From: Paramacrobiotus metropolitanus
Taxonomy: Eukaryota; Tardigrada; Eutardigrada; Parachela; Macrobiotidae
DNA length: 64,000 nucleotides
Reading direction: 5' to 3'
Assembly: GCF_019649055.1 (NCBI RefSeq)
Contig: NW_026570320.1
Coordinates: forward strand, 248,001 to 312,000
In this document: piece by piece, positions 53,429-64,000 of the stretch
Layout: the number at the start of each line of letters is the position of its first letter
How positions within the stretch are numbered: position 1 is the stretch's first letter
Notes under the pieces: generated by a model
Told to the model about the DNA's origin: nothing
Seen by the model: only the letters and a program-made list of their open reading frames with translations
The model's database searches: none
Program-made: the position numbers and the translations under genes

Positions 53429-55043
53429 TGTGCAAAAAATAGTCCCTTCACTCTGTTAAATGGTGCTCATGCGGGAAAACGCCGGAACCAAGATTTAGCG
53501 TTTTGTCTGAACTCCAACCTCCTTCCAGGTATGGTAGTCTCTCCCCTATCCTTTCCGCAGCTGCAATGGTATTCTTCTTTACTACGGTCTTGTAAAACTC
53601 TTGTTCCCTAATCTGCAATCAGCTGACTGACTGTGGAGAAGTTGTCAAGCTGCCCACCCCAGAGTGCCGGCTACATGTTCACATAGTAGTTTGACTTCGT
53701 AAGTACTTAAACCACAAAATCAAAATTGGAAAGATCAACGCTTGATCCTTTATAATGCTGCTGTAATTTCGTAAATTATTTAAAGTAATTAATCACATGG
53801 ATTACAGGTTTCGAAATAAATTCCGCACAAGAGAAAATTTACTAATCCTAGAAGCACGACAAGCAAGATTGGTGAAGCTTATAAAAGGCAGAACCCCCAC
53901 GTGTACATTAATTTTGTACATCCCACTGATCCCACTAATCGCAGCACCGGAATCGCAGCACATAAGGTCACCGTTGTCTCCTAATATTAAACACCTAAAG
54001 TAAATTAAAACTCCTGTGTTTCAACTGGAGAAGGTGGTATCGCCAAAGTTCTACAATTTACATACCGTAGCGATTCGGGAAGAGTAAGTAATTGAATGCA
54101 TGCTATGCATTGGCAAAACCTACAAACTGAACTTTGTGGAAGATTTAATCACTAAAATATTGCCAAAACCTAATTTAACTTTGTGGAAGTTTTAATAACG
54201 AAAATATAGATATTCATAGACTGCAAATACGGTAAAATTTTCAGTTTGTCAATAAAGCCATCAGCACACAATACTGTAAGTAGGTTGCGCATAGCATTAA
54301 TATGCCGTCAGTTTATTTTTCAAGAGATACTTTTGTGAAACTGTAAAACTTATGTTTGAAACGTGTCTGTACTGACTTGCAGAATTCCAGTACTGAAAAA
54401 AAGTTTAATACTAATATGTAGTGGTAGTTTTAACTTTTAAGCTTTGTTTTAGTGCACATCTGTATTGTTCACCGCGGAAACATAAGTCGAAGGTAGAGAC
54501 TTATGCCGTTATGCGCAACACGTTTGCTTACGATTAGTCATTTCAACTTTCGAATGACAACAACAACCGGCACGCACTGCAGCTATCCAAAATTGTTAGC
54601 CTATCTGCACTTCCTTAGTGTTAGACAAAGATGTTTACACGCATTATGAATTACTGTATACAGGTTCTTTGGAAAATGCACGTGTGCGGTATCAAAAACA
54701 CTCACAAACATACACAGGCTTGCTGTGAAGTACCGTGTTGTTTCTACTGACAAGTGAGCCAGCAGTACATACAGTACTTACCTGTTCTGAATCGTTGCGC
54801 TATTACTTCCTACGATGCCCAAGGCAAAAGCAAGATCTACTGCTTTTAGCTTTACATGAATAAGCTGCAGCATTCGCCCATACAAAACGGAAATTTTGGG
54901 AGCACTTCGAGAACAGGCCTAGATTTACAGGTACATAATAATGTATCACGTTTTGCCCCGATTAGCCTAAATTGCTTAGTAGTAGTGTGATCAGTGCTCT
55001 CGTCCGGTCCGCGCAGTTTTGTTTGTGTTAACAAGTAACAACT
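53429..55043. other. Divergent intergenic region DHTKD1/FBXO21
   Basis: About 1.6 kb, AT-rich, between two divergent start codons. It holds a partial tandem duplication (54111-54207) and must contain both promoters. No gene recognised. Confidence 0.55.
54111..54207. repeat. Imperfect tandem duplication, about 48 bp x 2
   Basis: 54111-54160 and 54161-54207 are two diverged copies of one unit (TGGCAAAACCTA...CTTTGTGGAAG...AAAATAT), differing by a few substitutions and a 3-base length change. Confidence 0.7.
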
Positions 55044-57611
55044 ATGGATTCCGGCGTCCACTCGCCATCATGTCCAGGATTTTTAGATTTGCCATGGGAG
55101 CTTATGGAGCATATTATCCTGCAGAATTCGTTGTCGTTCCGCGATATGGTATCCACGATACGTGTATTAGCACCGAATGATCAAACGGTGAAGTGCTTTG
55201 TCGCGTCGGCAAATTATTCAGAAACGCTGTGGGAGAAGAAATTCAGGCGCTTATATCCTGATCTGTACCGCATTTTTGTGCAGTATCCGACCAATAAATT
55301 CTGCCGAAAAATTGACTGGTACTCGCTGCTGCAGACACGTTATGAAATTGGTAAAGAAATCGGTCCAGTACTGCGTGCCATGCGAACTGACGCCATGTAT
55401 TCTTATCTGGAAACGGCTGGCCATCAGCAGGACAGGCTGATTACTCATTGGCTGGATTCTGACCCAGGCGATATACGCTATCCCCGCAGCGAGCGGGAAA
55501 CCAGATCGCCCAATGCCGGTGTACTCAACACTGCACTGGATTACAACTTCCACAAGGTCAGTTCAGTGCCGGAGGATGTGGATCAGTGCAAAATATGTAC
55601 GGAGTGTCATTATGGACCGGCTGCCGTAGTTACTTCCTTTGTGATGCAAATGTCCGGAGCTTTAAACACTGATAATTCTGAGACGTTTAGACTTCAGAAA
55701 TGCGGTCAAGTGCAGCATCGTATGACGGAGCTTCTTCTTCGGTCCGGCAAAATTACGAATCCATATTGGTTGGGTGAAAATGGCGATCATATCGTGACTA
55801 GTACTGTTGCTGCGGGTTGGCTAATTTTGGATGCTTGCCGAGAAAATATCGAAAATCTCACGATATGTAAGTCATAACATTGACGACAAGTCTTGATTGT
55901 TTATAACTTCAATAAGTTTATAATATATTATTAAGTTTAGCTTTGAAGCAACTTCGCGAAGTTGACTCAGAGAATTAATTCTCTGTAAGTGTGTTATGCA
56001 TACAGATTACTAACATTACTTTAATTAAGTTTTGATACGTCTAATTTACTGACCGGTTTTAAAGGCAAAGCATAAAATACCTTGATTCAGAATTTACTAA
56101 TGCATTTCGTTGCACACTTGCACACCTATTTTGTTTCAGCCGAAAAAAAGACAAACTTGGCGCACACTGGGACAATAAATCACGGCGTGCAACTTATGCG
56201 GATGTGCCAGACTAAGGTGTCAACTATGGAAATTTGCTCGGGATTTCTCTCCGTGTTATCTCAAATTGCAAGCGACGACTTGCACGCATTTGGTGGAACG
56301 TGCGATGAATTTTTTGTTTGCTTGAATTTTTTACAAGCCTGCTATCCGTTATGTTCGGATGTAGTCGGTAAATTTTATTCGAACGTGTGGAAAGCCGCAT
56401 CACGGGTCCGAAAGCTTATGGCTCAACGGAAACATTACCCAGTTCAAGGCATGGATTTTATCCAACTTGTGATATCGTGGATAAGTCAGGCTGTGCAGGA
56501 AATGGGAACGGATCTCCTGCCCGATGAACTCGCAATAGCAAGTGGTGCAATTTGCAACTTTCCTTACACTGCCGTTGTGGAAACCTGTCCGTCGATTTTG
56601 ACCTTTACGTTTTTAGCCAAATGTTTCCTTGCCCGCGATAACATTGCTGTAACGCTAAGGAAATTATGGCTGAATATTGCAGCTACGAATCCAGAAGGCA
56701 GCCAGGATACATATCGGAATAAAATTTACATTGTGCTGCCTTGTTTTACTGTTGAAGGACGCGATCATTTGTGTTTGCCTTACCGGCAAAATGGACGTTT
56801 TCCCGAAATCTTCTGCGATTATGCTGTCTTGGCGGCTGCTCTGCATAAAAATTTGTTTGATGGAATATACGAATCATTCGGAACGGTTCGGGAGTTAAGA
56901 ATAGCATCGCTTGCAAGTACAGGCCTCGTTGATCATCTACATGACTATTTAACTAGCGACTTCCATCAGCCGGACACTTGCATTGCCCGCGCTGTAGCAA
57001 AAAGATCAGAGTCGTATGGAGGAATTTTTGTGAAGGATCAGCGTGCACTATTCGGCGAAATAAGTCCATCTAATTTCGGATTTTTCGCTGATTATTGCAG
57101 AATGCAAGCTACAACTGATACGAACGCTCACAGTGAGCGGCCTGTGCGAAATTCCCCGGCGACGTACGAATCTGAATGCACGTTGCCTGTTGGCACCGTA
57201 GTCAGCATGAAATATCGAAGTTTTATACTGGATATCGAGGACGACAGCGTGGATCACTTAGCCGTAATAGTTAATTGGAAATCATCAAGAAAAGCTGGCG
57301 TTTCTGATGAAGGAGGCGCTCAACGTATCCGTTACTGCCTGTTGTGCCTCGACTCTCCTCATGAAAATGACCCGTATGTTCCGCCCGCCTGCGCAAAACT
57401 TGCCGCGAAGATGACCGTAGTTGACAATATTCCAATCCAAGTCCAGGCGCATTTGCACACAAACATTGTTCTCTGGGCATTCTTTAATAGTTTTGATGGA
57501 ATGTTTCTTGTTCCCCAACCTGCTTTAAAAGAAATGTATCCGGACGATTATAAAAAACAAGATGTTATTCGAGCCTTAGCCGGGCATACGGCTCGCGACC
57601 GTGTCATGTAA
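55044..57611 (+). CDS. FBXO21: F-box protein, FBXO21-like
   Basis: Substrate receptor of an SCF (SKP1-CUL1-F-box) ubiquitin ligase. Two exons, 55044-55866 and 56140-57611, join in phase to 764 residues (human FBXO21 628). An F-box lies at about residues 12-55 (FLDLPWELMEHIILQNSLSF), followed by a tryptophan-containing LWEKKFRRLYP segment as in FBXO21. The middle contains the SirB1/transglutaminase-like region of this family (EICSGFLSVLSQIA, FFVCLNFLQACYP). The C-terminal third has a YccV/hemimethylated-DNA-binding-type domain (LPVGTVVSMKYRSFILDIED ... IRYCLLCLDSP) and the trailing LVPQPALKEMYPDDYKKQD. The human TNFR-like name of the target set is not inferable from sequence. The start is the Met just before the F-box region; no other Met is nearby. 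The extra length is spread over the middle region. Confidence 0.87.
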
Positions 57612-58498
57612 TGCGCATAATGTTGCTTTTATGTTAAATGGGATGCCTGCGATGCCGCATTATAGTTGTAAATAGTTAAGAGAAATAATAGTGCGAGTTG
57701 ACCTCTCATTTATGCTAACTATATTAATCTACATATGTCATTATAAAACGAATCTAATTACGCACACAATTCAACATCTGAAGATCGAAATGACTCTATA
57801 CACTTTTGGAAAAAGAAAAGGGGAAGGCTCCGCACACTACCATGGTGGTGATGAAAGGTGGTGTGCGGCGTTTTGTGAGGTAAAACGTGGTGCCCGGAGC
57901 ATTCTCCAAAAGAAAATGCACAATTTCATTTTATCATATAGATGTGCTCAGTTACACAAAATGATGCTATCTTCAATATTACATAATATGTATATAGATA
58001 TATTATACTTATGTTCAGTTCATGTGTGCGGTGTGGAATAATTTCCCTATTTGCATAGTAGTGTACTGTGCATGTAAAATTTAAAACAGCCAGAGATAAT
58101 TCAAGTGCAGCCAATGCAATGAATTAATTATTATTCTGCCATTTCGTCGAAAACATTGTCAACATTCACACAATGTGTAGGTAAAACACAATTAACATAA
58201 GTTTAACTTTTCAGCCAATTTTTAACACAGAACTAGGGGCAAATTGCTAGATCACAGCATGTAGAAGCCAAAAAAACGAACTCACAAAATATGTGCAAAC
58301 TGCAGACGCTCTTACAAAATAAATATGTGCAAACTGCAGACGCTCTTTAGTTACAACAAAGTTCGACCCATCTCGGGACAGTTTTCAATCAAAACTGGCA
58401 AACGAAATGTACAGCTTGTGTTTTTTCAACAGTAATCGGATTCACGCCACAATTCTACCAGGGTATCACCAATTTCCGTTCAAGGAATAAGCGCGTAG
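57612..58498. other. Convergent intergenic region FBXO21/STMP1
   Basis: About 890 bp holding the two 3' ends. A 116-codon open stretch (57691-58041, plus) looks non-protein-like. A short tandem duplication is at 58284-58347. Confidence 0.55.
58284..58347. repeat. Short tandem duplication, 30-34 bp x 2
   Basis: Two adjacent copies of ACAAAAT...ATGTGCAAACTGCAGACGCTCTT (58284-58313 and 58314-58347), identical except for a four-base AAAT insertion in the second copy. Confidence 0.8.
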
Positions 58499-59421
58499 CT
58501 ATCTTGGTGGAACGTCGGATTTTTTATGGGATTCCATAAAATCCGTTACTTTGGCCCAGATTTCGCTGGGATGATCCAGCCTTGGCACCTAAAACGATTC
58601 AGATGAACTTTACCTGTAGCGGTGACTCTATACACTTCAACATTTTGAAATATTTGCATTGTATGAACAGTCATGCACAACATAGGTACCTCGTATACTA
58701 TTTCAGTAAAAAATTATGCACGCAACGAGGTATGCAATAATTAATTCTTTGTTATTTCTCTACAACCGGAAACGAAAATTAAGGTACTGTAATGAAATAC
58801 ACCAGAATTAATACTTTCGGTTAGAAGTACGGTACGCAGCCGCCTAGCCGCCAGAACAGATAGCCGGTAGCGTGCACAGTTTATTTAAGTAACGTTAAAA
58901 TTCTGTTGATTAATTTTCAGCACACTGGCATAAATCGCATACAGTAATAATATACAAACATTTTGGAAAAAACGCCATCTGTTTTTATCCAAATTTGCGA
59001 AGCGAGATTATTGTTTAATTATTGTCTTTCTGTGGAAGCCATATACCAATATCTATCAAAGGCAACTGCTTAAAAAATTTTAACAATAGTTAGATTCAAG
59101 TGGTCACGACTCACCTCATAATTCTGCGATACGTAGATACCAGCATACAGGCCCAAAGAAAACATTATCTACAAAAGGATGCGAATTTATGCGAAATATC
59201 TATACTATCGCGTTCTCAAGTGAATGGCATTCCTCAGCAGTACTGTGCGGAGTTTCTACAAACTGTAACAAACATTAGATTTCTCAATCAGCTGTCGTCC
59301 AAAGAAACATACAGTAGTTTACTAGTTAGGCTACATTCTACAAGTTAACAAGTACAGTGAAGTACTGTTAAAACCTAAGTATAGTAATCTGTGACAGGAG
59401 ACTTACCAGCCCGCGAAACAT
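58499..59421 (-). CDS. STMP1: STMP1, short transmembrane mitochondrial micropeptide
   Basis: A 52-residue protein from three small exons: 59421-59407 (MFRGL), 59168-59115 (IMFSLGLYAGIYVSQNYE) and 58588-58499 (VPRLDHPSEIWAKVTDFMES... ending before TAG). All junctions are phase 0 with good sites (CTG/GTAAGT, TTTTGTAG, GAG/GTGAGT, TTTTAG). It aligns without gaps over its first 23 residues with human STMP1 (47 residues): same Met start, LG-x-x-x-G-x-Y-x-x-QNY core, then a charged amphipathic tail. The single N-terminal membrane span inserts in the mitochondrial inner membrane. STMP1 is reported to associate with respiratory-chain complexes and to affect mitochondrial dynamics. The exons are so short that ordinary open-reading-frame searches miss them. 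It starts 655 bp from the divergent zinc-finger gene. Confidence 0.87.
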
Positions 59422-60076
59422 CGTTAACTTTGGATTCGATCCAAGAATCTGCAGGATGGCGAACCCAGACGACAACGTATAATTAACTCCGACAGGATGT
59501 ACTGTTACTGTCTGTGCACTGTACAACAAGATACGACCAAGAAAACCCACGAAAAGGCTGAGCCGAGTTTCAGATTGTTGAAGGATTTATGTGCATATGA
59601 TCGTATTCCCGCAAACAACGCCAAAATATTTATTAAAAACAGCAGTAAAACCGACTCCAGCTACATATCCGGGAAACAAGAAGCGTCGAATCAAATTTTG
59701 CGCGAGATCTCATTTTTTAGACTTTTCTAAAAACTCAAAGGGGACAAGCATAAATCTCTTTCAGACTCCCAAGTAGTAGTCAAGAAATGAATCTGATGAA
59801 ATCCTATTGAATAAGATGTAAGCTGCCGCCCTCTTTGGGGGGGTTGCAGTTGTCTTTGTCAACCACGGATTTGAAACCAAACTTCCCTGTGGACTGCGGA
59901 CTGCGGAGTGTGGAGACTGGACGCAAAATTTTCCATTCTCTTGTTTTACTTGTTTTCTAATTTTTCCGGTTGATTGCGAAATTTTCTGAATATATATGTG
60001 TAGCGCAGTCACACTGCTAAAATACGATTGGAAGGGGATTTTTAACCTTTAACGATTAGCGTAAAATTTAGGAATA
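59422..60076. promoter_or_regulatory. Divergent promoter interval, STMP1 / zinc-finger gene
   Basis: 655 bp between divergent start codons. A few open stretches are present on the minus strand but belong to no supported exon. No specific motif recognised. Confidence 0.45.
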
Positions 60077-61842
60077 ATGATGGATAATCCCGATGATCGC
60101 CAAATGCCGTCAGCATCAAAGGAATCAGCTCCCTGCGCGAAAGAACGTACAACCCGCGAATACGGACTCTATCGGTCGAAGATGTCTGTTTTATCTGACA
60201 ACTGTGATCAGGAAAAGCGATCGAAAGCTCAGAAAGCGGTAGGGTTTGAATTTTGCGCGCAAGTTATTTTCGGTATTGCCAAGTCTGTATCAAGAAGATG
60301 CGCGTTGATCGTCAGGTAATACCTCCTTGCGATGTTTGTGGAAAATTGCTCAAAACCCAGGAATCCATGCGAAGACACTATCGTCGTCATACTGGCGAAA
60401 AACCTTATCCATGCACTGTGGAAATGTGCAAGAAAGCTTTTCGCACGAAAAGCGATCTTCTGCGACACCTGCGAATGCATACGGGCGAAAAGAGATTTAA
60501 ATGCCAAGTTGCACAGTGTGGAAAATCCTTTACCACCTCCGCAACTTTGAAAGTCCATGAAAAAGTTGTCCATCTTAGTAAGAGAACTTGCTTTGTGTGT
60601 GGGCATACTTCTGGTGTGATTGTTTATTGGCGTGATATCGTTATTGAACTATTGTTTGCAGATGAAAAACGGTACAAGTGCGCAACATGTTCCAAAGAAT
60701 TCGGATATTTAACAAATTTTAATAATCATCTCCGGACGCACAGCGGTAAGTAGTAAAAAGTCACTGGCCAATTGTTTAAATGAGAATGCGTAAATTTAAT
60801 AGTGGAAATAATGCCTTCATATTTAAGGCTTGAAAAAAGCATTTTGAAATTACTGACATTTCCAAATTGCATCTGGAATCATTTGCCTAATAATGATACA
60901 AATTTTCATTTGAATTATGTAATATACTGTTCCTTCATGTCGTCTTTGAGAATCTGTCAGTACTGGGTCAAAATTATTCTGTCATTATAATTGATTATAT
61001 TGCATTGTTTCGTTATTTGTTTGAAATTTGGTGCTTATAATTTTCTGTTTTTTGATAGGCGAAAAACTCTACTGCTGCTCTCACCCCGGTTGTGAAAGCA
61101 AATTTGCTGAATACTCAACTGCGCTCAAGCATGTGATTAACATCCACAGTGATCCCGCGTCGTTTCGGTAAAGCACAATGAGGATCGAACACGGTTTTAA
61201 TAATTGCTTTGAGTCGTTTGTTTGTAGATGCAATGAGTGCAACAGGTTTTACCGATCACGAAATGGGCTTTCGTACCATGTCCGGACATTTCACGCACAA
61301 CGGAAGCCAGACAACAACGACAGCGAGACAAGGGGTACGAATAGGGGTGCAAGGAAGTGGTTCGAACATTCAATTAACAAAAATTGGCTTGTTACAGAAC
61401 AAGTGCGAGATTTAATCTTGGAGGAATTTCCCAGCCTGTTCCACATAAATGGCGGGCTTTGTGCGGAAGATGAACAGGAGGCTGCCTTGTTGCTTGGATT
61501 TCGTCGGCGTAAGTTAGTGGTATAATATACGAACTTTTTATATCACATTTTTCGCACTCCTTTTAGGAACTGATGCATCGGATGCTGATAAGTGTGAGGG
61601 CGGAAGTCGTGATATATCGCATCCCAGCGTAAGCGCTATATTTTGCTATCTGCTATGATGAGTGCTATCCCGTGTCCGTTGTGAGCCTGTGCTTTTTTTT
61701 CTTGGTTTGAAGTTAATTTTCGCAGGCTGGACACCACCACTCGTTATCCGATCGTTGGAATTCCGATGGGCATTTTCCTTACAGAGATGCTTCATTTGTT
61801 GACGGATTTCCTGAATTACTAGTACCGGAATCCGACATGTGA
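60077..61842 (+). CDS. C2H2 zinc-finger protein, six fingers
   Basis: Probable sequence-specific nuclear DNA-binding protein. Seven exons: 60077-60238, 60316-60577, 60662-60745, 61059-61167, 61228-61508, 61567-61628, 61726-61842; 358 residues. After a polar N-terminus of about 55 residues come six C2H2 fingers: CDVCGKLLKTQESMRRHYRRH; CTVEMCKKAF...HLRMH; CQVAQCGKSF...HEKVVH; CATCSKEFGYLTNFNNHLRTH; CCSHPGCESKF...HVINIH; CNECNRFYRS...HVRTFH. Linkers 1-2 and 2-3 are the classical TGEKP/TGEKR type and a later one is SGEKL. Several fingers have CxxxxC spacing, like TFIIIA and the ZNF76/ZNF143 group, but I cannot assign an orthologue. The C-terminal third is acidic and unrelated to known domains. 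The intron at 60239-60315 was accepted because reading through it gives a stop. Confidence 0.85.
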
Positions 61843-62307
61843 TTCATGCCATTGAAGTTCACAAGGCCCAAAACAGGAAATTTGTGCGTAAAGGAGAGGC
61901 ATGCAGTGTGCACCTGTTGTCGGTTGCGGTTATGGATTTGGGAGGACTATGTGATCCGTTATAATTATTTGTAGTGCCTGATCGACTGTGAAGAACACAT
62001 TTTCTTGGAGTTTCTTCATGAACTAGAAATTATTTGCACTCAGTTGTATAGCGTTTACTCGGGTTCACTGATTCAAGTCAAGTTTATGAGGAATTTTTGA
62101 ATGAATGAGGTACGAAGTATTTTTGACTTAAATATCGGCAACTACGGCAAATTAAAAAAAAACGTCGCAAATCGCAGCATATAAGTCAAGAAAAGTTGCG
62201 CCACTCAACTTGAATGTAACCGTATGCTAATCGAAAGCCGTATAGGCTGCAAATCCTGCAACCGAAAATTTTTGTAGACAAGAAGTGAAATCCAGCATCC
62301 GAAAGTT
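61843..62307. other. Convergent intergenic region
   Basis: About 465 bp of 3' flanks of the zinc-finger gene (+) and squalene monooxygenase (-). Nothing else seen. Confidence 0.6.

Positions 62308-64000
<1,693 letters not shown>

Follow-up and report, generated by a model that had tools for sequence, protein, structure and literature searches.

A probable STMP1 (mitolamban) gene and a second copy in the genome of the tardigrade Paramacrobiotus metropolitanus

Structure and surroundings of the locus

The window analyzed here, a stretch of 64,000 nucleotides from contig NW_026570320.1 of Paramacrobiotus metropolitanus, carries on its minus strand a small gene with three coding pieces separated by two GT-AG introns. 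The coding part of exon 1 (59407-59421, 15 bp) specifies MFRGL, exits in phase 0 and is immediately followed by a GTAAGT donor. Intron 1 (59169-59406; 238 bp, GTAAGT...TTGTAG) separates it from exon 2 (59115-59168; 54 bp), the translation of which, IMFSLGLYAGIYVSQNYE, comprises the membrane span, with a GxxxG at residues 11-15, and the QNYE motif, and intron 2 (58589-59114; 526 bp, GTGAGT...TTTTAG) is followed by the coding part of exon 3 (58499-58588; 90 bp including the TAG stop), encoding VPRLDHPSEIWAKVTDFMESHKKSDVPPR. Both junctions are in phase 0, and the spliced product, MFRGLIMFSLGLYAGIYVSQNYEVPRLDHPSEIWAKVTDFMESHKKSDVPPR, consists of 52 amino acids. This gene model had been proposed in a sequence-only reading of the same DNA, all coordinates of which turned out to be exact, as did the 15, 54 and 90 bp of coding sequence joined in phase across GT-AG introns into 52 residues. 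The accompanying description of the exons as tiny holds for the coding parts but not for the whole exons, only exon 2 being entirely coding; exons 1 and 3 should contain untranslated sequence in addition.

The start codon has an A at -3. Upstream of it, 55 codons can be read in the same frame before a stop occurs at -168; this leader has a weakly positive codon score (3.01) and contains no ATG. Within 200 bases 5' of the start there is a single ATG, at -175, which lies in another frame and begins an open frame of 8 codons.

The neighborhood of the gene includes a perfect 27-bp direct repeat (58287-58313 and 58321-58347, 34 bp from start to start), located about 150 bp 3' of the stop codon, and, farther along, two long open frames of 281 and 511 aa on the plus strand (55032-57611) that are convergent with the micropeptide gene and show no Pfam match at E<=0.01. 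On the opposite side, less than 1 kb away, a C2H2 zinc-finger frame (60250-60753, plus strand; PF00096, 9.2e-18) is arranged head to head with the gene, and a promoter region common to the two is possible. A search of positions 54000-64000 of the window against Rfam, at the gathering thresholds, gave 0 matches.

Family membership and copies elsewhere in the genome

The 52-residue product matches the Pfam family PF15054 (DUF4535) with 49.4 bits (E 3.5e-13), compared to the curated cut-off of 28.3 bits, residues 5-46 being aligned with positions 2-44 of the 45-position profile. The human STMP1 sequence used as reference here scores 39.6 bits over profile positions 2-45. PF15054 was the only family recovered from Pfam at E up to 10; PF15114 (SMIM4) and PF14990 (Brawnin) were not matched. 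In the search of the whole genome, exon 2 of the window gene is sufficient for a PF15054 match (1.6e-5). Because the human STMP1 reference finds DUF4535, we take 'DUF4435', given as the STMP1 domain in PMC12673850, for a misprint.

The resemblance to STMP1, also known as mitolamban or Mm47 (human C7orf73, mouse 1810058I24Rik), extends beyond the shared Pfam domain to the general layout of the protein, namely, a length of about 50 residues, a single N-terminal span with GxxxG, a QNY followed by a proline, and a short polar tail. The first 23 residues align with the human STMP1 reference without gaps, 10 of the 23 being identical, and the full alignment score was reached by none of 2000 shuffles. 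The QNYEVP at residues 20-25 is in the same register in the human STMP1 reference and in the product of the second tardigrade copy described below. Unlike STMP1, with its 47 residues, the tardigrade protein has 52; the tail is weakly similar, and two intact copies are present in the tardigrade genome. Hydropathy over 15-residue segments reaches its maximum of 1.77 at residues 4-18, and values above 0.6 are confined to segments beginning at residues 1-7; there is no second hydrophobic span in the product, segments that start at residue 20 or later peaking at -0.17. The search for PDB relatives at E up to 10 gave no match with the protein itself and, with a two-sequence profile, a single match at E 1.5, which is meaningless.

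How readily such a structure might arise by chance was assessed within the window, which contains, on both strands, 160 open 54-bp stretches bounded by AG and GT and 582 open stretches of 26-33 codons that run from an AG to a stop. Because the model should not be judged by the family chosen to fit it, these stretches were scored against the protein encoded by the second copy, on contig C22. Exons 2 and 3 of the window gene came out as the best of their respective classes, with scores of 63 and 62, and each exceeded everything found when the window was resampled 100 times under a first-order Markov model and both strands were scored, the best scores then being 32 for exon-2-like and 23 for exon-3-like stretches. 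Given that the C22 protein came from the same family search, this control does not depend on the window gene model, although it does depend on the family. The assignment to STMP1 in the sequence-only reading, the gap-free alignment of the first 23 residues and the contention that chance was unlikely are thus all upheld. The locus almost certainly belongs to the STMP1 family and, as judged from its sequence features, is very probably a functional tardigrade STMP1 (mitolamban/Mm47/C7orf73) gene.

Translated in all six frames, the entire genome (169,799,020 bases) matches PF15054 at four places with E<=0.001, all above the cut-off. The match on C22 extends to a complete second gene, also on the minus strand, with coding exons of 15, 54 and 93 bp at 240174-240160, 240106-240053 and 239551-239459, respectively. 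Its two introns measure 53 and 501 bp, and its product of 53 residues begins with MFRTL in exon 1 and scores 42.2 bits against PF15054. In the window and C22 genes alike, the first intron follows codon 5 and the second codon 23, each in phase 0, and the two products are 50% identical. Over 51 codons, the two genes differ at 20, 15 and 30 first, second and third codon positions, respectively, and 13 of the 38 differing codons are synonymous. The NG86 estimates, dN 0.46 and dS 1.94, give a dN/dS of about 0.24; this dS is nearly saturated, and no value was obtained from YN00. With the frame, start, stop and splice sites retained and the divergence highest at third positions, both copies are best explained, on these sequence grounds, as genes in use. 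Our literature search returned no report of STMP1 in tardigrades, nor of STMP1 paralogues in invertebrates.

The two remaining matches, on contigs C4 and C62, are of a different kind. They align with the window gene over 319 bp at 91% identity, a stretch comprising exon 2 with intron sequence on either side, 23 bp from intron 1 and about 240 bp from intron 2; a further piece, 74% identical to the window gene, contains an internal duplication. Each of the surrounding blocks contains repeats of about 1.07 kb in which fragments of STMP1 exon 2 and of intron sequence are found. Over the 9.6 kb compared, C4:1788801-1798400 and C62:159797-169400 are 99.7% identical in opposite orientation and, therefore, represent either one duplicated block or two uncollapsed haplotypes. 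No exons 1 and 3 were found beside the fragments in the stretches compared; weakly similar sequences may escape a search of the whole genome. In the C4 fragment, 5 of the 54 exon positions and 24 of the 263 positions in the intron flanks differ from the window, which is the same rate. We considered these places as a third and a fourth gene and rejected this assignment, given the presence of only exon 2 with partial introns, the divergence of the exon at the pace of its intron flanks and the near-identity of the blocks. Elsewhere in this genome, two of five DM-domain matches are located on C5, at 2.135 and 2.163 Mb; for P. metropolitanus, PMC11191345, which also describes transcriptomes of males and females, names DMRT paralogues on scaffold 5 and a region at 1.96-2.37 Mb. 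Searches with PF14651 and PF00061, aimed at the tardigrade-specific lipocalins (SAHS), yielded one full-length protein, whose PDB relatives, among the best 60 of 249, were fatty-acid-binding proteins, plus two partial matches, and gave no information on the lineage.

Alternative readings of the two genes

The occurrence of stray exon-2 copies in this genome raises the question whether the window exons could themselves be relics of a dead copy, comparable to those on C4 and C62, with the C22 gene as the only working one. We regard this as highly improbable. The window copy retains its start, its stop, all four splice sites and the frame, outscores the C22 gene on PF15054 (by the bit scores given above), and differs from the latter mostly at third codon positions, whereas the exon part on C4 diverged no differently from the flanking intron sequence. 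Another alternative is that the window encodes a protein of the STREMI type, the product of the SLC35A4 upstream ORF, with two spans and an N-terminal extension, that would act with MIC10 in MICOS. The two proteins are certainly akin: the SLC35A4 upstream ORF carries DUF4535 as well (PMC4383229), and the C-terminus of STREMI resembles STMP1 according to PMC13303939, where STREMI is described as restricted to vertebrates and as having two membrane spans in addition to predicted amphipathic helices. Moreover, the open leader of the window gene makes an upstream, spliced-in coding exon conceivable. Nevertheless, STREMI has 103 residues, and its N-terminal extension with the first membrane span is absent from the window gene as read, since the in-frame stop and the exon-1 start have no ATG between them and the product has a single hydrophobic span. 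Residues 6-27 are identical to the STMP1 reference at 10 of 22 positions and to the STREMI reference at 9 of 22, and the local alignment score of the whole product is 69 against STMP1 compared to 52 against the C-terminal part of STREMI. SLC35A4 on the same transcript, a trait of STREMI in jawed vertebrates, was not found among minus-strand frames of at least 100 aa between 58498 and 55563, where no open frame of this size exists; the next frame on this strand (55251-55562, 103 aa) is antisense to the plus-strand frame of 281 aa. The lack of an extension, the ungapped alignment with STMP1 and the difference between the two scores together place the window product with STMP1, and a STREMI-type identity appears extremely improbable.

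For the C22 gene, the same question takes another form. In its leader (240175-240369), no in-frame stop occurs 3' of the one at -195, and translation from an in-frame ATG at -105 would lengthen the product by 35 residues, including the hydrophobic stretch LLKGVLVYGAY, to a total of 88. Of the 22 positions formed by the membrane exon and the next four residues, 14 are identical to the human STREMI reference and 10 to that of STMP1, and the local scores of C22 against the two are nearly level (74 for STREMI, 76 for STMP1). If C22 indeed encoded an 88-residue, two-span, STREMI-like protein, this tardigrade would possess one STMP1-like and one STREMI-like protein, and the divergence of respiratory-complex from cristae-organizing forms would be older than vertebrates or would have taken place twice. 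From the sequence comparisons, however, this appears very unlikely. The extension does not stand out as a homologue of the STREMI N-terminus: on its own, it scores 21 against STREMI residues 1-66, a value reached by 1000 of 5000 shuffles (20%), and placed in the complete protein, it yields a score of 80, which is reached with 425 of 5000 shuffled extensions (8.5%). Of 1494 open non-coding stretches, 255 (17%) have a codon score at least as high as its 3.44, and its hydropathy over 13 residues peaks at 0.73 compared to 1.35 in the first span of the STREMI reference. Ahead of the ATG at -105, a further ATG at -142 opens another frame, which overlaps the extension. Against PF15054, the 88-residue form scores 40.9 bits, slightly below the short form, and matches no additional family above the cut-off. 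The presence of MFR.L at the conserved methionine in both copies points to the short form as the ancestral one.

Putative function and relationship to other mitochondrial micropeptides

By analogy with vertebrate STMP1, the 52-residue product would be located in the inner mitochondrial membrane, anchored by its single N-terminal helix (approximately residues 4-19), the GxxxG face of which could pack against another helix, and would expose a polar tail that is short and carries no net charge. A cleaved presequence would not be required for this topology, in our interpretation. The peptide might then bind respiratory complex III and contribute to its assembly or activity. In vertebrates, such a role is described in several places: STMP1 is listed as a known complex III assembly factor in PMC13303939, a table in PMC10199267 has it regulating both the assembly and the function of complex III, and the review PMC12190854 notes its association with complex III in the heart, where the activity of this complex decreases upon knockout in mice. 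However, in native gels of the telencephalon of knockout mice, complexes I-V were without gross change (PMC9932084). Further reported roles of STMP1 include effects on complex IV activity, DRP1-linked mitochondrial fission and inflammasome activation. In view of these other roles and of the unchanged native gels, the function in complex III is contested, and the assembly-factor statement and the one in the review on the heart, which go back to a single study, Makarewich 2022, do not confirm each other independently. For the tardigrade protein, we consider the chances of a complex III role, extrapolated from vertebrates, to be about even. A true STMP1 homologue with its main job in fission, complex IV activity or stress signaling is a real, if more tentative, possibility that derives from the reviews and one research paper crediting vertebrate STMP1 with such activities and from the same mouse brain gels, and that has to contend with the complex III statements cited above. 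Some of the pathways tied to STMP1, such as the Nlrp3 inflammasome, belong to vertebrates, which counts against this alternative.

As a protein family, STMP1 is not restricted to vertebrates: conservation of the peptide from human to nematode is noted in PMC9932084, where exon 2 and exon 3 of the mouse gene are also mentioned, and the family is placed in land plants and metazoans in PMC13303939. The further statement of the sequence-only reading, that such genes are nearly always absent from invertebrate annotation, finds no support here, conservation of this breadth being already on record. With DUF4535 already known from these lineages, the window gene is a new member rather than a new family; it is real, correctly named and ordinary in kind. 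What the present analysis adds is the C22 paralogue, the exon-2 fragments and the separation of the window gene from STREMI, a related protein that has to be distinguished in the case of any DUF4535 match; none of the three had been noted in the sequence-only reading. Two intact STMP1-type genes with a common exon plan and exact junctions in one tardigrade genome make a useful annotation entry and raise the question why a tardigrade keeps two copies; the knowledge of the family itself is unchanged.

The closest functional parallels are SMIM4 and Brawnin, which likewise are small mitochondrial proteins that span the membrane once and act on complex III (PMC9681215), if the location and role of the window product follow the vertebrate analogy. 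Unlike the window protein, they belong to other Pfam families, PF15114 and PF14990. Sloth1 and Sloth2 of Drosophila were considered as relatives of the window gene and dismissed, being SMIM4 and Brawnin themselves (PMC9681215). The same genome contains matches to the families of both these complex III helpers, on contig C87. Our literature search returned no report of sloth1 in tardigrades. In the region C87:213503-214565, on the minus strand, a SMIM4-like exon (PF15114, 1.8e-11) is followed by an open frame that ends with a TGA at 214079-214077, this last exon being assigned by eye; 45 bases farther on, at 214031 and on the same strand, a Brawnin-like gene begins, with PF14990 matches of 2.3e-5 for its first exon and 4e-8 for the spliced product. 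The arrangement looks like the linkage of sloth1 and sloth2 described for Drosophila, a choanoflagellate, a sea squirt and a lamprey (PMC9681215), here in a tardigrade.
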